The notes under the pieces were generated by a model. That model made no database searches. It was not told where the DNA came from and saw nothing but the letters and a program-made list of their open reading frames with translations. From Planosporangium flavigriseum (GTDB lineage Bacteria > Actinomycetota > Actinomycetes > Mycobacteriales > Micromonosporaceae), in NCBI RefSeq assembly GCF_011947225.1, contig NZ_JAATVW010000025.1:1-57898 (forward strand): a stretch of 57,898 bases of DNA, read 5' to 3'. The position numbers and the translations under genes were made by a program. Each line of letters begins with the position of its first letter. Within the stretch, counting starts at the first letter, position 1. Positions 6,045 through 57,898 of this stretch are shown piece after piece.

Positions 6045-6132
6045 CGGACCTACTCCTCATCCATGCAGTGGACGGTTTCGGTAAGGCCGGACGCGGGAGC
6101 TGGACGCCGGTGCTGCGCTGGGCGGAGACGAT

Positions 6133-47557: not shown

Positions 47558-47932
47558 ATGACCGCGAGCAAACCGACCGTTGAATTTCCCGGGGGCGATG
47601 CCCCGACCGACCTCCAGATCGAGGACCTCGTCGTCGGCGAGGGCCAGGAGGCCAAGGCCGGCGACCAGGTGGTCGTGCACTACGTCGGCGTGGCGCACTC
47701 GACCGGCGAGGAGTTCGACGCCTCGTGGAACCGGGGCTCGCCGTTCGCGTTCCCGCTCGGCGCCGGCCGGGTCATCGCCGGGTGGGACCAGGGAGTCCAG
47801 GGCATGCGGGTCGGCGGGCGCCGGCAGCTGACCATCCCGCCGCAGCTCGGGTACGGCGACCGCGGGGCGGGCAACGTCATCAAGCCCGGTGAGACCCTGA
47901 TCTTCGTGGTTGACCTTCTCGGGGTGCAGTAG
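47558..47932 (+). CDS. FKBP-type peptidyl-prolyl cis-trans isomerase
   Basis: 124 residues, a single cytosolic FKBP domain: VVVHYVGVAHSTGEEFDASW, FPLGAGRVIAGWDQGVQGM, RRQLTIPPQLGYGDRG and TLIFVVDLLGV. The active-site Tyr, Asp, Trp and Phe positions typical of FKBP are kept. There is no signal peptide. It assists protein folding by proline isomerisation. It is monocistronic, followed by a hairpin with a T-rich tail. Confidence 0.95.
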   Translation: MTASKPTVEFPGGDAPTDLQIEDLVVGEGQEAKAGDQVVVHYVGVAHSTGEEFDASWNRGSPFAFPLGAGRVIAGWDQGVQGMRVGGRRQLTIPPQLGYGDRGAGNVIKPGETLIFVVDLLGVQ

Positions 47933-47958
47933 CCACCCGGGCGCAGTACCAGCCAGAG

Positions 47959-47999
47959 CCCGACCGCTGCGGCCAGACCGGAGCGGTCGGGCGTCCTTT
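47959..47999 (+). terminator. Hairpin terminator after FKBP gene
   Basis: CCCGACCGCT (47959-47968) pairs with AGCGGTCGGG (47982-47991), followed by CGTCCTTTA. A classical stem plus T-rich tail 27 nt after the stop. Confidence 0.82.
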
Positions 48000-48267
48000 A
48001 TATTGCGGCGGAAATCGTCCCGCCCTGCCCGGACGTCGGCATGAACCCGGACGTCCGCTTTGTTCCGAGGATCCCCGACACGCCGGAGAAATCGCCGTTG
48101 GTCGACCCGGGCGAGGTACTCGCGCGGGCGGTTGCGCAAGCCGTCGAATGCGGTACCGCCCCTGCTCATGGGGCTGATTGGGCACTATGCCGCGCCGCGC
48201 CGCGCCGCACATGGCGCCGGCCGCAGGTGCCCGCGTAACAGACACGTAAACGGCGTGACACGAATCC

Positions 48268-48326
48268 TTGACATCGCGGATTGCTGCCCCTAGGTTCTAA
48301 GCACCCTGTTGTGACATCGATTACCT
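48268..48326 (+). promoter_or_regulatory. Promoter-operator module 1 (P1) of the sugar operon
   Basis: TTGACA (48268-48273), 17 bp, TAGGTT (48291-48296), 14 bp, then operator motif GTGACATCGATTACCT (48311-48326). It lies about 600 nt upstream of the binding-protein gene, the first of four identical modules in the window. The operator would sit at about +8, a repressor position. No supported gene exists in 48000-48934. The 48000-48267 part holds only a CGCCGCGCCGC run (around 48190), and the stretch to module 2 looks like leader or decayed sequence. Confidence 0.75.
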
Positions 48327-48681
48327 CGCCTCACGACGATCACATCGAACGGTGGCGAGCGGTAGGAACAGTGCTGGTCCAGCCCACACGGTGGGCCGCG
48401 CTGCTTCGTGACGCGATCGCTCGGAACGAGCGTGACCGTCGGGAGGTGGTGGTGTCGTGGTGCCGGCGGCGAGCGTGAGTAGTCCGTCAGCGTCGCGTCG
48501 CGCGTCGCGCCGTCGGTCGGCTCGGTCAACGTGCCGAACCAGCACGTCGTGGCGCTTAACCGCCGGGTGTGGCAAAGCGGAAATTCCGTCCGATAAGGAA
48601 AGTTTCGTCGCCGTGCGGCGGGCCGGTCCGTTGTGGATTTTCCATGGCGGTGAGCACTGGCCGTCCTGGCGCCGAAGAGGA

Positions 48682-48740
48682 TTGACAATCCGGTTGGCGG
48701 TACCTAGCTTGAGTGCACTCGGTCGTGACATCGATTACCT
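48682..48740 (+). promoter_or_regulatory. Promoter-operator module 2 (P2) of the sugar operon
   Basis: TTGACA (48682-48687), 17 bp, TAGCTT (48705-48710), 14 bp, then GTGACATCGATTACCT (48725-48740). It lies about 195 nt before the binding-protein start, so it is probably the main operon promoter, with P1 414 bp upstream as a second start. The 16-bp operator motif is identical in both. Confidence 0.8.
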
Positions 48741-48934
48741 CCCATGGCACAACACTCCGGAGTCGGAGCGGGTAAGGCGCGGGAAACTGCCGGTCGGAGC
48801 CCGATCGGCTCCGATGGCCGCGGTGGTGTCGCGGTGCGACGCCACCGGACGGAGGCGCTGGAGCGGCAGCGACTCGGCGAGTTAAGAGGCAAGCCCCCTA
48901 TAAACGCGTAACACCTTCGAAAGGGACGTACCGG

Positions 48935-49984
48935 ATGGACGTTTTCAGCGCCAAGCTGACGCGCCGCGGCTCGTTAGGCCTCGCCGGCGCCGCCGTGCTG
49001 GCCACGGCCACGGCCTGTGGCTCGTCGTCGGGCTCGAAGAGCGACTCGGGTAAGAAGGAGCTCACCATCGGCTGGTCGGTGGCGTACTTCGACCACCCCG
49101 TCTACCAGCTGATGATGGAAGGCATCAAGGAGGAGGCCGCCAAGCAGGGCGTCAAGGTCATCCTCTCGGACGGCAAGAACGACCCGGCCATCCAGACCCA
49201 GCAGCTCAACAACTTCCTCGCCCAGAAGGTCGACGGAATCATCCTGACCCCGGCGGTCTCCGACCCGATGATCCCGGCGGTGAAGAAGGTCAACGCGGCT
49301 AAGGTGCCGTTCGCGATCGTCGACCGGCGGATGGAGACCAAGGGCTCCGGCATCAAGTGGGACTTCCTCGTCAGCTGGGACATGGTCAAGTCCGGCACGG
49401 TCGGCGGTGAGCAGGTCGTCAAGGCGCTGAACGGCAAGGGCAAGATCGCCGTCGTCGAGGGCACGGCCGGCGCGGGCTCCACGGTCGACCGCGGTGGCGC
49501 GTTCTACAAGGTGATCACCCAGAACCCGGGCATCGAGGTCGTCTACAAGGCGGACGGCGACTTCAAGCGCAGCGGTGGCCAGCAGGTGACCGAAGCCATC
49601 CTCCAGCGCTTCCCGAAGGGCTCGATCGACGCCATCTACTACATGGCCGACGAGATGCTGTTCGGTGGAATCCAGGCGGTCAAGGCCGCCGGCCGCCGCG
49701 CCGACCTGAAGATCATCAGCTGCGACGGCGACAAGAACGCGCTCGACCTGCTGCGCAAGGGTGAGATCGACTACGACGGCATCTTCTTCCCCAAGGACGA
49801 GGGCGTCATCGGCACCCGCCTCATGGCCCAGAAGCTCAAGGGTGAGAAGCCCGACCTCGCCAACCAGGAGTACGAGGGCCGCAAGGCCGCTCTCGTCGAG
49901 CACGAGGGCATGCCCTGGGTGAAGCCGGACTTCTTCGGTGTCGACTCCACCAACATGAACGACCCGATGTACAAGGGCTGGTAA
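48935..49984 (+). CDS. Sugar ABC transporter substrate-binding lipoprotein
   Basis: 349 residues. Lipoprotein signal with lipobox ATAC (Cys28) and an RR pair at 10-11. Periplasmic-binding-protein type 4 fold as in ribose/galactofuranose receptors: LTIGWSVAYFDHPVYQLMM, QLNNFLAQKVDGIILTPAVS, AIVDRRMETKGSG, VVEGTAGAGSTVDRGGAF and IISCDGDKNALDLLRKGE. GAAAGGGA precedes the ATG. It binds a pentose, hexose or polyol outside the cell. First gene of the operon after the P1/P2 modules. The exact sugar is unknown. Confidence 0.93.
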   Translation: MDVFSAKLTRRGSLGLAGAAVLATATACGSSSGSKSDSGKKELTIGWSVAYFDHPVYQLMMEGIKEEAAKQGVKVILSDGKNDPAIQTQQLNNFLAQKVDGIILTPAVSDPMIPAVKKVNAAKVPFAIVDRRMETKGSGIKWDFLVSWDMVKSGTVGGEQVVKALNGKGKIAVVEGTAGAGSTVDRGGAFYKVITQNPGIEVVYKADGDFKRSGGQQVTEAILQRFPKGSIDAIYYMADEMLFGGIQAVKAAGRRADLKIISCDGDKNALDLLRKGEIDYDGIFFPKDEGVIGTRLMAQKLKGEKPDLANQEYEGRKAALVEHEGMPWVKPDFFGVDSTNMNDPMYKGW

Positions 49985-50021
49985 CAGACCCGGTTAGACG
50001 TCGCGGAGCGCAATCCGCACC

Positions 50022-50066
50022 CGTTCTTCCCGCTCGCCGTCCAGCCGACGGCGAGCGGGAAGAACG
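50022..50066 (+). promoter_or_regulatory. Perfect 19-bp intercistronic stem-loop
   Basis: CGTTCTTCCCGCTCGCCGT (50022-50040), loop CCAGCCG, ACGGCGAGCGGGAAGAACG (50048-50066). It lies between the binding-protein and ATPase genes with no T-run. Such structures let a binding-protein message be kept at higher level than the rest of the operon, by partial termination or 3' end protection. Confidence 0.75.
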
Positions 50067-50110
50067 CACATCGACCGACCGCAACGGGAGTACGAGAAAG
50101 GGGGCGTTCC

Positions 50111-51643
50111 ATGGTCGCTTCATCGACTCCACAGCCCCTCCTGCGTATGGAGGGCATAACCAAGTCGTTCGGCAACGTCCAGGTGCTCCACGGTGTCGAC
50201 CTCGAGGTCGGGCGCGGCGAGGTCCTGGGCCTGCTGGGTGAGAACGGCGCCGGCAAGTCGACGCTGTTGAACATCCTGAATGGGGTGCTCCAGCGCGACA
50301 CCGGCGCTATCCACCTCGACGGCGAGCCGGTCGAGTTCGCCGGGCCGAAGCAGGCGCAGGACGCCGGCCTGGCCTTCATCCACCAGGAACTGAGCGTCCT
50401 GCCGTACCTCACCGTTGCGGAGAACATCTTCATCGGCCGCCTACCCCGCCGTAAGGGCGCCCCCTGGCTGGTCGACTGGGCGGCCTGCTACCGGCAGGCG
50501 GGGGAGATCCTCGAGCGTCTCGCGGTGAAGATCGACCCGCGCACGATCGTCGGCCGCCTCGGCACCGCCGAGCAGGAGCTCGTCGAGATCGCCAAGGCGC
50601 TCTCGATGAACGCCCGGATCATCACCATGGACGAGCCGACGGCGTCGCTGACCGAAGCGGAGATCGAGCGGCTGTTCACCCTCATGCGGGCGCTGAAGGC
50701 CGACGGCGTCTCCGTTCTCTACGTCTCGCACCGGCTGCACGAGGTCGCCGAGATCTGTGACCGGGCGACGATCCTCCGCGATGGCAAGATCGTGAACACC
50801 GTCGACGCGAAGACGACCAGCTCCCACACCCTGGCCACCATGATGGTCGGCCGCGAGCTGTCGGAGCTGTTCCCGAAGACCGAGCACGAGCGCGGCCGCG
50901 AGACTCTCCGGGTGTCGAACCTGTCGACCGTGAAGCTCAAGGACGTCAGCTTGAGCGCCCACCAGGGCGAGATCCTCGGTATCGCCGGCCTGGTCGGCTC
51001 GGGCCGTACCGAGCTGGCCCGGGCGATCTTCGGCGCGGACCCGATCACCGCCGGCGAGATCTTCGTCGAGGGCGAGAAGGTCACGGTGGACTCGCCGGGC
51101 ACCGCCATCCGGCACGGCATCGGCCTGGTGCCCGAGGACCGCAAACTCCAGGGGGCGGTCCTGTCGATGAGCAACGCGCACAACATCAGCCTCGCCTGCA
51201 TGTCGAAGGTGAGCCGGCTCGGTCAGCTCGACCGGGGTGCCGAGAAGCAGGCGGCTAAGAAGCTAGTCGCCGACCTGCAGGTCTTCCCGCCGCGCGCCGA
51301 GCAGGAGACCGGTCGCCTGAGCGGCGGTAACCAGCAGAAGGTCGTGCTGGCCAAGTGGCTGTTCGCCGGTTCGAAGATCCTCATCGTGGACGAGCCGACT
51401 CGAGGTGTCGACGTCGGCGCCCGGGCCGCCATCCACGGGCTGCTCAATGACCTGGCCGGGCAGGGCGCGACGATCATCATTATCTCGTCCGACCTTCCCG
51501 AGGTCATGGGCATGAGCGACCGGATTCTCGTCATGCACGAGGGTCGCATCTCCGGTGAGCTCGCCCGGAAGGACTTCAGCGAGGAGGCGATCGTCATGTA
51601 CGCCTCGGGACTTGAGCCAATCAAGGAAGGGTCGAACGCGTGA
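50111..51643 (+). CDS. Sugar ABC transporter double ATP-binding protein
   Basis: 510 residues, RbsA/XylG-type with two ATPase halves. First: GENGAGKSTLLNILNG, IHQELSVLPYLTVAENI, signature region LGTAEQELVEIAKAL and MDEPTASLT. Second: the degenerate Walker A GIAGLVGSGRTELARAIFG typical of the family, signature LSGGNQQKVVLAKWLF and VDEPTRGVDVG. It powers the paired permeases. AAAGGGGG precedes ATG 50111; the stop overlaps the first permease start by 4 nt. Confidence 0.94.
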   Translation: MVASSTPQPLLRMEGITKSFGNVQVLHGVDLEVGRGEVLGLLGENGAGKSTLLNILNGVLQRDTGAIHLDGEPVEFAGPKQAQDAGLAFIHQELSVLPYLTVAENIFIGRLPRRKGAPWLVDWAACYRQAGEILERLAVKIDPRTIVGRLGTAEQELVEIAKALSMNARIITMDEPTASLTEAEIERLFTLMRALKADGVSVLYVSHRLHEVAEICDRATILRDGKIVNTVDAKTTSSHTLATMMVGRELSELFPKTEHERGRETLRVSNLSTVKLKDVSLSAHQGEILGIAGLVGSGRTELARAIFGADPITAGEIFVEGEKVTVDSPGTAIRHGIGLVPEDRKLQGAVLSMSNAHNISLACMSKVSRLGQLDRGAEKQAAKKLVADLQVFPPRAEQETGRLSGGNQQKVVLAKWLFAGSKILIVDEPTRGVDVGARAAIHGLLNDLAGQGATIIIISSDLPEVMGMSDRILVMHEGRISGELARKDFSEEAIVMYASGLEPIKEGSNA

Positions 51644-52674
51644 GCACCACCGCGCAGGTGGACCGTCAGGTCGTCGAGGCGCCGAAACGCGGCCTGGCCC
51701 GGTTCAACATCCAGCTCGAGAACATCGCCAGCGCCATCGTGCTGGTGGGTCTTGTGATCGTCATGAGCATCGTCTCGCCGGCGTTCCTGTCGTTCTCCAA
51801 CTTCCTTGACATCGCCCGGGTCGTGGCCATCACCGGCATCATCGCCGCGGGCATGACCCTCGTGATCATCACCGGCGGCATCGACCTGTCGGTCGGCTCC
51901 ACCGTGGGCCTGTCGGGGGCGGTCACCGCGTCGCTGGTGGCGAACTCCGCCAGCAACTCCGCCTTCGTCACCGACTTCAAGCTGCCGGTGCCGCTCGCCG
52001 TGCTGGTCGGACTCGCCGTCGGCGCCCTGATCGGCTTCATCAACGGCCTGATCATCACCAAGACGAAGATCGAGCCGTTCATGGCCACCCTCGGCTCCAT
52101 GATCTTCATCAAGGGCCTGCTGTTCCTGTTCACCGGCGGATATCCGATCACCTTCAAGCCCATGCCGCGCGACTTCGCCTTCATCGGCCAGGGCGCGCTG
52201 CTCGGGATCCCGACGCCGGTCTGGGCGTTCGCGATCGTGGTCGCCGCGCTGTGGTGGGTCTCCCGGCGTATGACGGTCGGGCGCGCCATCTACGCCATCG
52301 GCGGCAACCCGGAGGCGGCCCGGCTGTCCGGCCTGAAGGTCGACCGGACGAAGATCTTCGTGTACACGCTGCTGGGCTTCCTCGCCGCGCTGGCCGGGAT
52401 CGTGCTGACGTCGCGGCTCGCCAGCGCCACCACCGTCAACGGCGCGGGCTTCGAGTTGATCGCGATCTCCGGGGTCGTGATCGGCGGGACGAGCCTGGTC
52501 GGTGGCCGCGGCTCGGTCGTCAGCAGCCTCATCGGCGTCTTCACCGTGGGCGTGATCAAGAACGCGCTCGACCTGTTCGGGGCCTCAACGCAGGTCCAGT
52601 ACGTCGTCACCGGGCTGGTGCTGCTTGCGGCGATCAGCCTCGACGGGCTCGCCCGGCGCCGGAGGCGGTCATGA
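51640..52674 (+). CDS. Sugar ABC transporter permease (RbsC-type) 1
   Basis: 344 residues from a GTG overlapping the ATPase stop. About nine or ten helices with family motifs TLVIITGGIDLSVGSTVGL, GALIGFINGLIITKTKIEPF, TVGRAIYAIGGNPEAARLSG and GVVIGGTSLVGGRGSV. It is one of two different permeases, as in the YtfT/YjfF (galactofuranose) and LsrC/LsrD pairs, which suggests a heterodimeric channel. Confidence 0.92.
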   Translation: MSTTAQVDRQVVEAPKRGLARFNIQLENIASAIVLVGLVIVMSIVSPAFLSFSNFLDIARVVAITGIIAAGMTLVIITGGIDLSVGSTVGLSGAVTASLVANSASNSAFVTDFKLPVPLAVLVGLAVGALIGFINGLIITKTKIEPFMATLGSMIFIKGLLFLFTGGYPITFKPMPRDFAFIGQGALLGIPTPVWAFAIVVAALWWVSRRMTVGRAIYAIGGNPEAARLSGLKVDRTKIFVYTLLGFLAALAGIVLTSRLASATTVNGAGFELIAISGVVIGGTSLVGGRGSVVSSLIGVFTVGVIKNALDLFGASTQVQYVVTGLVLLAAISLDGLARRRRRS

Positions 52675-52724
52675 GGGCGTTCGGATCGCATCGGCCGGCG
52701 CGCGCAGAGAGCAGGAGCAAGTAG

Positions 52725-53801
52725 ATGTCGACGTTGACAGAGACGCCAGCGAGCCCGCGTGAAGCGAGCAAGCCCAAGGCCGGTCGCCGGCTGCCCATCC
52801 AAGGGCAGCAGCTCGCGCTCGTCGTGCTGATCGCCTTGCTCGCGGGCGGGTTCGCCAGCCAGTCGCCGGAGTTCTTGTCCACCGGCAGTATCGAGAACCT
52901 GCTACGAAGTGCGTCGATGTACGGCATCGTGGGCCTGGGCCTGACGATCGTCATCATCAGCACCGGGTCGCTGGGCGGCATCGACCTGTCGGTCGGGTCC
53001 ATGATGGCGCTCGGTGGCGCGATCGGCGCCGGCCTGCTCGGCACCGCGTTCAGTGCCGCCAACCCGGTCAAGCTACCGGCCGTCGTCGCCGTGCTGATCG
53101 CGCTGGTGGTCACCGGGGTGCTCGGCTCGATCAGCGGTCTGCTGATCGCGCGGCTGAAGCTCGCGCCCTTCGCAGTCACGCTGGGCATGATGAGTGTGGC
53201 GCGCGGCCTGACCTATCTAATGATCGCCTGGGCGATCGGAAGCGCGAACACCGCCGGCATCACGTTCTCCGACCCGCTGTTCGACTGGTTCGGCCTCACC
53301 AACTACGGGCCGATCCCCGCGATCACGGTTCTGTTCGTCGTCCTCGCCGCCCTGATCGCGTTCATGCTGAAGGCGACCCCGTTCGGGCGCAGCCTGTTCG
53401 TCCTGGGCGGTAACGCCGACAATGCCCGGCTGGCCGGTATCAACGTCCGCCGGACGATCGTGATCGTGTTCGCGATCAGCGGGCTGCTGGCCGGCCTCGG
53501 CGGCCTGATCCTGACCGGCCGCCTGTCGTCGGCCACGCCGCTGGCGGCGACCGGGTACGAGCTCGACGTGATCATGGTCGCCGTCATCGGCGGCACCAGC
53601 CTGGCCGGCGGCCGGGGCTCGATTCTCGGCACCGTCCTGGCGGCGATCATGGTCAGCGAGATCAACACAGGCCTGGACATGATGAACGTGGAGTCGTTCT
53701 ACCAGTACCTGATCAAGGGCACGATCCTCGTCCTGGCCGTGGTGCTGGACAAGGTTTACCAGGCGCGGAGCTCCCGGAAGTTGGCGGCAGCAAGCGCGTG
53801 A
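52725..53801 (+). CDS. Sugar ABC transporter permease (RbsC-type) 2
   Basis: 358 residues. RbsC-type helices with GGIDLSVGSMMALGGAIGAG, SISGLLIARLKLAPFAVTLG, PFGRSLFVLGGNADNARLAG and AVIGGTSLAGGRGSILG. It differs enough from permease 1 to be an ancient duplicate partner. The 50-nt gap before it has a GGAGCAAG-like ribosome site. A 13-bp hairpin follows the stop. Confidence 0.92.
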   Translation: MSTLTETPASPREASKPKAGRRLPIQGQQLALVVLIALLAGGFASQSPEFLSTGSIENLLRSASMYGIVGLGLTIVIISTGSLGGIDLSVGSMMALGGAIGAGLLGTAFSAANPVKLPAVVAVLIALVVTGVLGSISGLLIARLKLAPFAVTLGMMSVARGLTYLMIAWAIGSANTAGITFSDPLFDWFGLTNYGPIPAITVLFVVLAALIAFMLKATPFGRSLFVLGGNADNARLAGINVRRTIVIVFAISGLLAGLGGLILTGRLSSATPLAATGYELDVIMVAVIGGTSLAGGRGSILGTVLAAIMVSEINTGLDMMNVESFYQYLIKGTILVLAVVLDKVYQARSSRKLAAASA

Positions 53802-53808
53802 GGTGGCC

Positions 53809-53837
53809 AGCGGGCCGGGGCGTTGCCCCGGCCCGCT
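53809..53837 (+). promoter_or_regulatory. Intercistronic 13-bp hairpin
   Basis: AGCGGGCCGGGGC (53809-53821), loop GTT, GCCCCGGCCCGCT (53825-53837). A perfect stem between the second permease and the dehydrogenase gene. It may partly terminate transcription and lower expression of the dehydrogenase relative to the transporter. No new promoter was recognised here. Confidence 0.65.
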
Positions 53838-53857
53838 CCGGTTGAAAGGTCAGCTGC

Positions 53858-55555
53858 ATGGAGTACGCAAGGAAGCCGGAGCCGGTCGACGTCGTCATCG
53901 TCGGGATGGGCGCGTCCGGGGGCACCGCCGCGAAGGTGCTGTGCGAGGCCGGCCTGAAGGTGGTCGGCCTGGAGCGGGGGCCGTGGCTGCGGCCGCGCGA
54001 GCACTTCTCCGGCGACGAGATCAAGTTCCTCAACCGCACGTATCTGTGGTCGGACCCGCGGGTGAACCCGCGGACCGTACGCACGGACGAGACCGAGAAG
54101 GCCGTCCCGACGCCGTTCTCGATGGTCCCGCAGATGGTCGGCGGTGGAACCGTGCACTGGGCGGGCTGGCTGCCGCGCCCGCGCCCGTCGGACTTCATGA
54201 TGCGTAGGCTGCACGGCGACATCGAGGGCGCCAGCCTCGCCGACTGGCCGATCACCTATGACGACCTCGAGCCGTACCTGTCCAAGGTGGAGTGGGCCTT
54301 CGGCTGCGCGGGCCTGGACGGCGCGGACAAGTACGAGCCGTACCGCAGCACGCCGTACCCGACCCCGCCGGCGCCGCCGACCCGGGCCGGCAAGCGCTTC
54401 TACGACGCGTGCAAGAAGCTGGGCATCAACGCGATGCCGATCCCGCAGGCACTGATCACCAAGCCCTACAAGGGGCGTACCCCGTCCAACTGGACCAGCT
54501 TCTGGAACGGGTACGGCGATCCGAGCGGGATGCGCTCGTCGACGCTGGACACGTTCGTGCCGGAGGCGCTGGCGACGGGCAACCTCGAACTCCGGTCGGA
54601 GTGCTACGTGCGCGAGGTGACGGTCGGTGCGGACGGCCGCGCCCGCGGTGTGGTGTACGTCGACGCCGACGGCCGGGAGATCGAGCAGGAGGCCAACCTC
54701 GTCCTGCTGTGCCTCGGCGCGGTCGAGTCGGCGCGGCTCATGCTGCTGTCGACGTCGCGGCAGCACCCGGACGGCCTCGCCAACAGCAGCGGGCAGGTCG
54801 GCCGCAACGCCACGTTCCACGAGTACCTGTTCGCCGTCGGCCTGTTCAACGACGAGCAACCGCTGTACGGATTCCCCGGCAACTACATCAGCGGCGGGTC
54901 GTTCCAGTTCTACGAGACCGACTACGACCGCGGGCACATCGGCGGGGCGCTGATCGGCGCGTCGCACGTCGGCCAGCCGATCAACTGGAACTTCCCCGGC
55001 CGTCCGGCGTGGGGGAGCGCGGCCAAGGACGCCGACCGCGACTTCTACAACCACGCCATGAAGATCGGCCACACCCTGCACGACATGCCGGTCGAATCCA
55101 ACCGCGTCGACCTCGACCCCGACGTCAAGGACGGCTGGGGGCTGCCGGCGGCCCGGATCACTCACAAGGCGCACCCCAACGATTTCCGCCTGGCCAAATG
55201 GCAGGTCGACAAGAACGTGGAGATCCTCGAGGCGGCGGGCGCCTGGAAGACGATCCCGGTCTACCTCGAGCGCGGCCGCGCCAGCGGGAACACCTGCCAC
55301 CAGCACGGCACCGTACGCATGGGCACCGACCCGGGCACCACCGTCCTCAACGAGTGGTGTCAGGCGCACGACGTCGACAACCTCTACGTGCTCGACGGCG
55401 CCAGCTTCCCGACGGCGACCGGTGTGAACCCGACGCTGACCATCATGGCCAACGCCTGGCGGTGCGCCGACTACATCGCCGAGGTGCACGCCAAGGGGCG
55501 CGTCGAGCGGTTGGCACCGGGGCGTGCCGGCCGGGTCGAGGCACGGACGAGCTGA
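53858..55555 (+). CDS. GMC-family FAD sugar/polyol dehydrogenase
   Basis: 565 residues. FAD-binding Rossmann motif VDVVIVGMGASGGTAAK with Glu in LERGPW, an HWAGWLPRPRPSDF substrate-side region and the GMC C-domain NTCHQHGTVRMGTDPGTT with catalytic His, then NLYVLDGASFPTATGVNPTL. There is no Tat or Sec signal, so the enzyme is cytosolic, or exported only with a partner. It belongs to the gluconate-2-dehydrogenase/glucoside-3-dehydrogenase-like branch that needs a small subunit. Same operon as the sugar importer and coupled to the subunit-3 gene 10 nt downstream. Confidence 0.92.
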   Translation: MEYARKPEPVDVVIVGMGASGGTAAKVLCEAGLKVVGLERGPWLRPREHFSGDEIKFLNRTYLWSDPRVNPRTVRTDETEKAVPTPFSMVPQMVGGGTVHWAGWLPRPRPSDFMMRRLHGDIEGASLADWPITYDDLEPYLSKVEWAFGCAGLDGADKYEPYRSTPYPTPPAPPTRAGKRFYDACKKLGINAMPIPQALITKPYKGRTPSNWTSFWNGYGDPSGMRSSTLDTFVPEALATGNLELRSECYVREVTVGADGRARGVVYVDADGREIEQEANLVLLCLGAVESARLMLLSTSRQHPDGLANSSGQVGRNATFHEYLFAVGLFNDEQPLYGFPGNYISGGSFQFYETDYDRGHIGGALIGASHVGQPINWNFPGRPAWGSAAKDADRDFYNHAMKIGHTLHDMPVESNRVDLDPDVKDGWGLPAARITHKAHPNDFRLAKWQVDKNVEILEAAGAWKTIPVYLERGRASGNTCHQHGTVRMGTDPGTTVLNEWCQAHDVDNLYVLDGASFPTATGVNPTLTIMANAWRCADYIAEVHAKGRVERLAPGRAGRVEARTS

Positions 55556-55565
55556 GGAGAAGACG

Positions 55566-56270
55566 ATGACATCCATGGCTGACTGGCCCGTCGTCCCGGC
55601 CCCCGCGGATTCGGGCTCCGGTGAGCGGCTCTTCTTCGACGACCACGAGTGGGACACGATCGAGGCGGCGTGCGCGCGCATCATCCCCACCGATCACGAC
55701 CCCGGGGCGCGCGAGGCGGGCGCCGTGCGGTTCATCGACCGGTACCTGTCCGGCATCGACTTCGTGTACGCCGCGGCCGACGGTAGCGGCTTCCTGCAGA
55801 TGAGCGGCAAGCTGGCCGACGCCTGGCGGGCCCGCGTCTCGGATCTGGGCCGGGTCTACCGCCAGGGCGTCCGCGATCTCGACGCGATCGCCCGGGAGCG
55901 GTTCGGGGCGGACTTCGTGGCACTGGGCGAGTCCGACCAGGACGCGGTGCTCGTGCAGTTGTCCGGCCGGCCGAAGCCGGCGCCGGTGGCGCTCGTGGAC
56001 GACGGTGGCAAGCCGACCATTCAGGTGTACGCGTTCGACGACGACCTGACGTTCTTCGACGCCCTGGTCGCGCACACCCGGCAGGGCTTTTACGGGGACC
56101 CGGTCTACGGCGGCAACCGGGATCGGATCGGGTGGACCGTCATCGGCTTCCCCGGCCCGGAGTCCCTCAAAGACACCATGGACGGTACGTACAGCGTGCG
56201 CGAGTACTACGTACAGGACTACGACTGGCATGACCTCATCCCGCACCTGGGGCAGTCGGGTACGCCGTAA
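55566..56270 (+). CDS. Gluconate 2-dehydrogenase subunit-3-family protein
   Basis: 234 residues from ATG 55566, with GAGGAGAAG just upstream deciding the start. LFFDDHEWDTIEAACARIIPTD, then GAREAGAVRFIDRYL, match the gluconate_2-dh3 family, the small partner of GMC dehydrogenases. In typical members the N-terminus carries a Tat signal; here none is seen. It helps assemble or stabilise the FAD subunit. It is the last gene of the operon. Codon use is like that of its neighbours. Confidence 0.9.
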   Translation: MTSMADWPVVPAPADSGSGERLFFDDHEWDTIEAACARIIPTDHDPGAREAGAVRFIDRYLSGIDFVYAAADGSGFLQMSGKLADAWRARVSDLGRVYRQGVRDLDAIARERFGADFVALGESDQDAVLVQLSGRPKPAPVALVDDGGKPTIQVYAFDDDLTFFDALVAHTRQGFYGDPVYGGNRDRIGWTVIGFPGPESLKDTMDGTYSVREYYVQDYDWHDLIPHLGQSGTP

Positions 56271-56316
56271 CCCGCTGAGGGCAACGGCGCCGAGCGCTGT
56301 GCCATAGCATCGAGCA

Positions 56317-56375
56317 TTAACGCAGGTCGGCGCCGATGGCAGTCTCGGCGCAATATCCCGTGACAACGATTACCT
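56317..56375 (+). promoter_or_regulatory. Promoter-operator module 3 (P3) upstream of lacI
   Basis: TTAACG (56317-56322), 17 bp, CAGTCT (56340-56345), 14 bp, then GTGACAACGATTACCT (56360-56375), one base different from the other operators. The same spacing as P1, P2 and P4 but weaker promoter boxes, fitting low-level autoregulated expression of a repressor. The leader of about 130 nt to the lacI start holds no other feature. Confidence 0.72.
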
Positions 56376-56507
56376 CGTCTCACGTTGGCTAGAGAGGACG
56401 GCGAGCCGGTTGATGAACGACCATCTATACGGAGGGACTGCCGCGCCCGCACGCGTCGCGTTACGCGTCGGTGTCCTCGCCCTCACCGCGATGGGTGCGC
56501 GGGCGTC

Positions 56508-57539
56508 ATGACGAAGAAGGTTGTGCGGCTCAGCGACGTAGCTTTGGCTGCTGCGACGAGCGCCAAGACAGCGTCGCGGGTCATCAACGGGGATCCGCGG
56601 GTGGCTCCGGAGACGCGTCGGCGGGTGGAGGAGGCCGTCACCCGGCTCGGGTACCGCGTCGATCTGCTGGCCCGGTCGCTGCGCCGGGGTGTGGATGACA
56701 CGATCGGTGTCATCGTCGAGTCGATCGCCGACCCGTTCTTCGCGGCGGTGATCAGCGAAATCGAGCTCGCGGCGCTCCGGCGCGGACTGAACGTGATCGT
56801 GACGAGCAACCGGCGGCTGCCCAACCGGGAGGTCGCGATCGTCGACAGTCTCCAGCAGCGGCGGGTCGCCGGTCTGATCATCACGCCGCATACATCGGAC
56901 CTGTCGTATCTCGCGGCCACCGACACCCCGGTGGTGTTTGTGGACCGTCATCCCCGCAACTTCCCGGCGGATGTCGTGACGTTCGACGACCGGGGCGGCG
57001 CGCGGATGGCGGTCCGTCATCTGCTCCGCTACGGCCATCAGCGGGTTGCTTTCGTCAGTGATGACCTGGAGGTCGAGACGTCCCGCAACCGGCACGCGGG
57101 GTATGTCGACGCGCTGATGGAGGCCGATCTGCCCGTGGCGCCCGAGCTTGTCGCGACCGACTGCGCCGATGCGGCCGTGGCGCGGGCCCGTACCTGCGAG
57201 TTCCTGGACCTCGACGAGCCACCGACGGCGATCTTCAGTGCCCGTTCGGAGACCTCGCTGGGTGTGGTCAAGGTTCTCCATGACCGGAAACGCACTGACA
57301 TAGCCACGGTGTCGTTCGGTGACTTCGCCCTTGCTGATGTCCTGTCACCGGCGATCACCGTGCTTGAGCAGTCTCCCGAACTGCTCGGGAGACTGGCGGC
57401 CGAGCGTCTCTTCGCCCGGCTCGACGGCGACCACAATGACCCGGTCAATACGGTCATTCCGTTACGCCTGGTTCCCCGAGGATCGGGGGAGATCGTCCCG
57501 TCCGGTGGTGCGGAAACGGTCGGTGGTGCCGGGGTGTGA
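56508..57539 (+). CDS. LacI-family transcriptional regulator
   Basis: 343 residues from ATG 56508. The N-terminal helix-turn-helix and hinge (VVRLSDVALAAATSAKTAS, RVINGDPRVAPETRRRVEEA, LGYRVDLLARSLRRG) are typical; the C-terminal domain is a periplasmic-binding-protein fold (DTIGVIVESIADPFFAAVI, VVFVDRHPRNFP, AIFSARSETSLGVVKVL). It binds a sugar or sugar phosphate as inducer. It is preceded by the P3 module, so it probably represses itself and, through the same motif, the importer operon and the gene to the right. Confidence 0.93.
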   Translation: MTKKVVRLSDVALAAATSAKTASRVINGDPRVAPETRRRVEEAVTRLGYRVDLLARSLRRGVDDTIGVIVESIADPFFAAVISEIELAALRRGLNVIVTSNRRLPNREVAIVDSLQQRRVAGLIITPHTSDLSYLAATDTPVVFVDRHPRNFPADVVTFDDRGGARMAVRHLLRYGHQRVAFVSDDLEVETSRNRHAGYVDALMEADLPVAPELVATDCADAAVARARTCEFLDLDEPPTAIFSARSETSLGVVKVLHDRKRTDIATVSFGDFALADVLSPAITVLEQSPELLGRLAAERLFARLDGDHNDPVNTVIPLRLVPRGSGEIVPSGGAETVGGAGV

Positions 57540-57706
57540 CGATTCGGTCTTCGGCCGGCAGTTCCGGGTGCTGCCGCCTGGGTCCGCTGGCGGTCAATCG
57601 GCGGCTACCGGTAGCGCCGAAGTCACTGCGGCACACCGCGTTCGCGCTGGTGGTGGCCGCTGCATCGGTGTCAGCCGGTCATGGTCCGATCCCTCCTTTG
57701 AGGTGC

Positions 57707-57765
57707 TTGACACGTCAGAGAGAGGTGTTTACGGTGATGTTTCAAGGCCGTGACATCGATTACCT
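57707..57765 (+). promoter_or_regulatory. Promoter-operator module 4 (P4) at the right edge
   Basis: TTGACA (57707-57712), 17 bp, TACGGT (57730-57735), 14 bp, then GTGACATCGATTACCT (57750-57765). It points rightwards out of the window. The remaining 57766-57898 is a leader, with a GGAGCAAGGA-like ribosome site at 57874-57883, so the next gene likely begins just beyond the edge and belongs to this regulon. In 57540-57706 I see no gene. Confidence 0.75.
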
Positions 57766-57898
57766 AACCCCGGAGCGTCGGGGTCCGGCAACGGCTGTCT
57801 CTGCGGACCGTAGGCGGTCGAGCATCACCAATCCCCGTCGTGCTTCGTCGCCGGTGCACACACTGCACCGAAAACGGAGCAAGGACGCGCTTTGTAAG

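Follow-up and report, generated by a model that had tools for sequence, protein, structure and literature searches.

Four asymmetric promoter-associated sites mark a putative local LacI-family regulon in Planosporangium flavigriseum

Results

The DNA examined is contig NZ_JAATVW010000025.1 of Planosporangium flavigriseum, all 57,898 bases of which make up the window (contig C18, in a genome of 5,719,918 bases and 85 contigs). It carries four copies of a short motif placed around a sugar-type importer and the gene for a LacI-family regulator, lacI (56508..57539, + strand), and these copies are the putative operators considered here. The motif, GTGACAWCGATTACCT, matches the + strand exactly four times, at 48311, 48725, 56360 and 57750, and even with up to three mismatches allowed, none of 100 dinucleotide shuffles of the window gives four matches (mean 0.17, largest 1). 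A sequence-only reading of this stretch had placed the motif at these four positions and had described a palindromic ATCGAT centre in three of the copies, and both observations hold. All four copies have a central CG, together with G at position 3 and C at position 14, two outer positions that are symmetric to each other.

Each site lies downstream of promoter-like boxes on the + strand, with 43 base pairs (bp) from the start of the -35 box to the start of the motif in all four cases. The P1 promoter (48268..48296) has TTGACA at 48268-48273 and, after 17 bases, TAGGTT at 48291-48296, followed by site 1 (48311..48326, GTGACATCGATTACCT). P2 (48682..48710), with TTGACA at 48682-48687 and TAGCTT at 48705-48710, precedes site 2 (48725..48740, GTGACATCGATTACCT), and P4 (57707..57735), with TTGACA at 57707-57712 and TACGGT at 57730-57735, precedes site 4 (57750..57765, GTGACATCGATTACCT), again with 17 bases between the boxes. 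Although TTGACA occurs eight times in the window, the looser pattern TTGACA-N17-NANNNT occurs just three times on both strands together (48268, 48682 and 57707), at precisely these promoters. Site 3 (56360..56375, GTGACAACGATTACCT), which stands before lacI, follows weak candidate boxes, TTAACG-N17-CAGTCT (P3, 56317..56345). The boxes before site 3 are likewise weak, as judged by eye, in Planosporangium mesophilum (G002; TCAACG/ACGTCT, 43 bp) and at locus L044 (TTAGCG/ACATCT, 39 bp). The description of the four modules as identical therefore suits sites 1, 2 and 4, with their shared TTGACA-N17-TANNNT form, and is too strong for site 3.

Sites 1 and 2 are followed, all on the + strand, by genes for a sugar-type substrate-binding protein (Peripla_BP_4, 48935..49984), an ABC ATPase (50111..51643), two BPD_transp_2 permeases, A (51640..52674) and B (52725..53801), a GMC oxidoreductase (53858..55555) and a gluconate 2-dehydrogenase subunit 3 family protein (55566..56270). 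The substrate-binding protein is closest to sugar-binding proteins, including those of ribose and galactofuranose type, and the closest solved chains to the GMC oxidoreductase are fructose and glucose dehydrogenase. For the ABC ATPase, the top NCBIfam scores among the best 25 of 189 families went to xylose and ribose types, below cut-off; across the ten proteins scanned, a set without permease B, no listed model exceeded its cut-off to name a substrate. The imported substrate is likely a sugar. Because the window is the whole contig, the gene after site 4 lies beyond its end, but in six relatives site 4 is followed by a carbon-nitrogen hydrolase (CN-hydrolase) gene and then by genes for a zinc alcohol dehydrogenase, a Gfo/Idh oxidoreductase and a short-chain dehydrogenase (SDR). 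The closest solved structures to this hydrolase are formamidase and aliphatic amidase. The term "sugar regulon" from the sequence-only reading fits a local regulon with a sugar-type importer, while the sugar itself is only likely and the fourth operon, in relatives, opens with an amidase-like gene. To the left of site 1 the window has a gene for an FKBP-type isomerase (47558-47932), where six relatives have a class II aldolase and an FGGY kinase. A reading frame of 32 codons found by eye at 56414-56512, whose stop overlaps the lacI start, was considered as a leader feature of lacI and rejected: the P. mesophilum leader is shorter and does not keep the frame.

Seven orthologous clusters were available for comparison, from the window, P. 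mesophilum, Micromonospora pattaloongensis, Micromonospora sp. PLK6-60, Sphaerisporangium album, and metagenome-assembled genomes (MAGs) of Sphaerisporangium and Blastococcus. The clusters were anchored on each site without gaps, and invariant columns were counted in the motif and in its flanks. Invariant motif columns numbered 15 of 16 at P1, 12 of 16 at P2 and 16 of 16 at P4, against 1, 0 and 4 of 100 flanking columns, respectively, and conservation ends at the 16-17 bp edge of the site. Since the flanks drift almost completely while the site stays, selection holds the site itself. The site before lacI, with 11 or 12 of 12 core letters, is present in three of the seven clusters: the window, P. 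mesophilum and the Sphaerisporangium MAG. The distance from -35 box to site is 40-43 bp at P1 and 39-44 bp at P4 in the relatives, and 39-44 bp at P2 where a promoter persists (one with a poor -10 box). The fixed geometry of 43 bp put forward earlier consequently describes all four sites of the window, whereas relatives vary, mostly within 39-44 bp, with one distance of 30 bp and one P2 copy that has no such promoter.

A second type of cluster, seen in G003, G021, G048, G061, G071 and G080, encodes in order a PfkB kinase, a LacI with 53-57% identity to that of the window, an FGGY kinase and a LacD-type aldolase. One or two sites precede the PfkB gene in each, at 39-44 bp from the -35 box, with the single case of 30 bp. 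In G003 a further site (L031, 5889) precedes a divergent gene (at 6081) for a cupin with a mannose-6-phosphate isomerase-like domain; it widens the regulon of the kinase type.

Across 209,015 bases from 13 loci (L039, L042 and L043, which by their lengths duplicate the contigs of G002, G011 and G184, were not recounted), we found 34 core sites of the form TGACAWCGWTTACC, four palindromes of the ATTACC half and no palindromes of the TGACA half. The core-site pattern itself demanded the central CG and the outer G and C, and its count is no independent test of those letters. All core sites but one (33 of 34) are oriented like the gene that follows, with the TGACA half upstream; the exception is at L040, 15734. 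Counted by position rather than by copy, the direction is the same at seven of seven: P1, P2, P3, P4, two positions before the kinase gene and one before the cupin gene.

The motif is closely tied to this cluster in the genome at large. The sequence-only reading had named random occurrence genome-wide as evidence that would tell against it; in the genome of P. flavigriseum the only exact sites are the four around lacI. At up to two mismatches, these are joined by one match with two mismatches, on another contig, and a reversed control pattern gives one match. The 11-bp right half, AWCGWTTACCT, occurs four times in the genome, always at the four sites (reversed control, none). Of 61 genomes, comprising this one and 60 relatives, 13 have a site with no more than one mismatch and six an exact one, while 21 have a LacI match at or below E 1e-60. 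The six best LacI matches (E 6.6e-99 or better, the next being 2.0e-88) come from the same six genomes that have an exact site, a coincidence to be expected once in 55.5 million cases if the genomes were independent, which they are not. We used rank by E-value here in place of a 53% identity line between LacI proteins with and without the site, a line drawn after seeing the data. In the order, the exact site occurs in eight of 397 genomes, and seven of these encode this LacI in the same cluster as the site; in a sample of the class, it occurs in one of 394, the window's own.

The protein encoded by lacI has an N-terminal LacI helix-turn-helix (HTH) domain (PF00356, 45 bits, cut-off 27), with the HTH signature TSAKTASRVINGD, and a C-terminal sugar-binding-like domain (PF13377, 92.8 bits, cut-off 26.5). 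The hinge, ARSLR, is assigned from sequence only to residues 55-59. The protein falls short of the equivalog cut-offs for CcpA (121.6 against 442.35 bits) and for RbsR (162.3 against 382 and 143.1 against 531 bits). In a tree of 38 rows, with its root placed for drawing only, the 13 LacI proteins with a site fall on one side of one branch, so that one change suffices, with moderate support (89/88; the branch appears in 92% of 200 bootstrap trees). The recognition-helix signature TS[AT]KTASRVINGD, picked out after seeing the data, is present in all 13 and in none of the 25 other LacI-family sequences compared, 19 of which read VSxKTVSRVxN or VSLRTASRVLN. Sites were scanned for at 12 of 14 LacI loci, L051 and L052 (25-26% identity) being left out. 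The genome has nine further LacI-family HTH matches (one is below cut-off), all of which lack the signature, and a second LacI as heterodimer partner was rejected because no other match carries it.

The portion of PMC2978694 that we draw on ties Arg at AA-20 to the outer G, and Ala at AA-51 and Leu at AA-54 to the central CG. Residues R24, A55 and L58 of the window LacI fit these three positions with an offset of 4, in our own numbering. As far as its sequence tells, then, the Ala and Leu of the hinge and the Arg of the recognition helix agree with a CG-centred operator that has outer G and C.

The two halves of the site differ, and relatives suggest what each may be. In G048, G061, G071 and G080, a perfect palindrome, GGTAATCGATTACC (also written AGGTAATCGATTACCT), made from the ATTACC half and centred on CG, stands once each in the interval that separates the FGGY kinase gene from the aldolase gene. 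An outgroup scan of 16 LacI loci found near-palindromes of TGNCA or GACA type, among the matches listed, in at least 12 (L045-L050, L075 and L078-L082). They mostly stand just upstream of the LacI gene, as with TTGCCATCGATGGCAC and TTGTCATCGATGTCAA; in L078, L080 and L081 they stand further upstream, about 1.1 kb from lacI, as does TTGACAACGCTGTCAT. Among the matches listed, L076, L077 and L084 had no near-palindrome and L083 had one, far from the gene. The site is thus a mixed one, with a TGACA half like the outgroup half-sites and an ATTACC half that looks derived. The earlier judgement that the motif is unlike LacI boxes does not stand, given the central CG, the symmetric outer G and C, and a right half that forms a perfect palindrome in four relatives.

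Discussion

Comparison among genomes establishes the site, its context and its association with one group of LacI proteins. From the sequences, the four sites are very probably operators for the product of lacI (56508-57539), forming a small local regulon. This proposal, already made in the sequence-only reading, is strongly supported by co-occurrence of site and protein, by retention of the site beside drifting flanks, by the grouping in the tree and by the helix signature, all at the level of sequence. A LacI dimer would bind just downstream of the predicted transcription start, at roughly +5 to +22, would block the promoter while bound, and would be released on binding a small molecule formed from the substrate taken up. 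The tandem promoters P1 and P2 would drive the importer and dehydrogenase genes, and P4 would drive an operon that in relatives encodes the amidase-like hydrolase and three oxidoreductases. P3 may allow LacI to control its own gene, but site 3 is not general, which leaves autoregulation of lacI as the weakest element of the proposal. Of the targets first suggested, namely the importer, lacI and an unseen gene on the right, the last is amidase-like in relatives, and control of lacI is weakened by the poor boxes at site 3 and by the loss of that site in other clusters.

Several observations weigh against this interpretation. The site before lacI is missing in four of the seven clusters, where the best candidates have 8-9 of 12 core letters, and the P2 copy in the Blastococcus MAG has a degraded site as well as lacking the promoter. 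Sphaerisporangium album has an extra site, TTGACATCGATTACCT (L040, 15734-15749), located after a short-chain dehydrogenase gene and without an identified target. One genome of the order, G387, carries an exact site, probably by chance, but no such LacI at E 1e-50. In nine other genomes that carry the site, the right half has 47 matches (reversed control, one), 27 of them in the clusters and 20 outside. These 20 are spread over G002, G003, G011, G021, G048, G071, G080 and G184, and they may reflect composition or further targets, with a wider regulon in those genomes. Finally, the part of PMC2978694 considered reports that E. coli LacI leaves a mixed site unbound when the extra central base of the lac operator O1 is lacking; binding of such a site by the window LacI therefore needs proof.

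Other explanations account for parts of the pattern. CRP recognizes the consensus GTGA-N6-TCAC, and the resemblance to it of GTGA-N6-TTAC within the motif raises the prospect that another regulator, such as a CRP/GlxR-like protein, reads the site. We consider this very improbable, although no search aimed at CRP sites was made: the sites of a global regulator should be scattered across the genome, whereas the exact site occurs in the genome only around lacI, goes with the LacI group, and in its palindromic version is centred on CG as LacI operators are. Slimmer still is the chance that the conserved stretch acts as an RNA leader element at the 5' end of messages. Such an element would account for the fixed direction, the 33 core sites oriented with their genes lying in the predicted transcribed region, and a weak consensus fold at P1 does pair some motif columns. 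That fold has an energy of just -1.7 kcal/mol, however, while the fold at P4 (-9.3 kcal/mol) leaves the motif unpaired, and conservation stops at the 16-17 bp edge. A search of 47900-57898 against Rfam gave nothing at threshold, one match reaching 25.9 against 69 bits, and the RNA element was rejected on this result and on the lack of clear support from the leader folds at P1 and P4. A short GC-rich inverted repeat is visible by eye right after site 4 (57766-57810) here, in P. mesophilum and in the Blastococcus MAG; the consensus fold does not use it. Just as slim is the chance that whole promoter modules were copied, so that common descent rather than selection explains the likeness of the sites. 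The four modules do share polarity and spacing, and sites 1 and 3 have some downstream letters in common by eye, but among orthologues the flanks have almost fully drifted while the site stays. Duplication may nevertheless be the origin of the shared polarity.

The fixed direction could come from shared descent by duplication or from functional need. If from need, a homodimeric LacI-type repressor of this group may have come to recognize two unlike half-sites, always placed in one order with respect to the promoter, making a directional operator, with the TGACA half, presumed ancestral, toward RNA polymerase and the derived ATTACC half away from it. We regard this refinement of the operator hypothesis as rather unlikely.

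LacI-family operators generally lie near promoters, and the catabolite-responsive element (cre) has the consensus TGWNANCGNTNWCA, with which the window site agrees at 13 of 14 positions. The CcpA structures 1rzr and 1zvv are the closest solved relatives of the window LacI; the CcpA regulon is global, in contrast to four local sites here, and the CcpA equivalog score given above is far below its cut-off. The local LacI-family regulons in the portion of PMC4052901 considered are alike in having one LacI gene, a few nearby operons of carbohydrate type and a CG-centred operator; the window differs in its mixed half-sites of one direction. Asymmetric or mixed operators are likewise found in the family, as with O1 and the "mixture" operators in the same part of PMC2978694, but O1 has its extra central base, while the window halves differ in specificity bases without an extra base and are used in one orientation. 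An exact-text literature search, which did not cover figures, returned no match to the motif strings.

The switch proposed is of a well-known kind; what is new is this local regulon, its small peculiarity being a lopsided site that seems to keep to one direction. It offers a sharply defined operator, open to direct test, for a group of LacI proteins that is apparently uncharacterised. With its TASR, the window LacI stands outside the TVSR group analysed in the portion of PMC2978694 used here, so that site and helix signature together add a case beyond that group to the LacI recognition code. The sites also mark out a pathway of import and oxidation, common to several actinobacteria, that comprises the importer, the GMC dehydrogenase, the amidase-like hydrolase and the oxidoreductases. 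If the fixed direction matters, the system would bear on how symmetric repressors make use of asymmetric sites.

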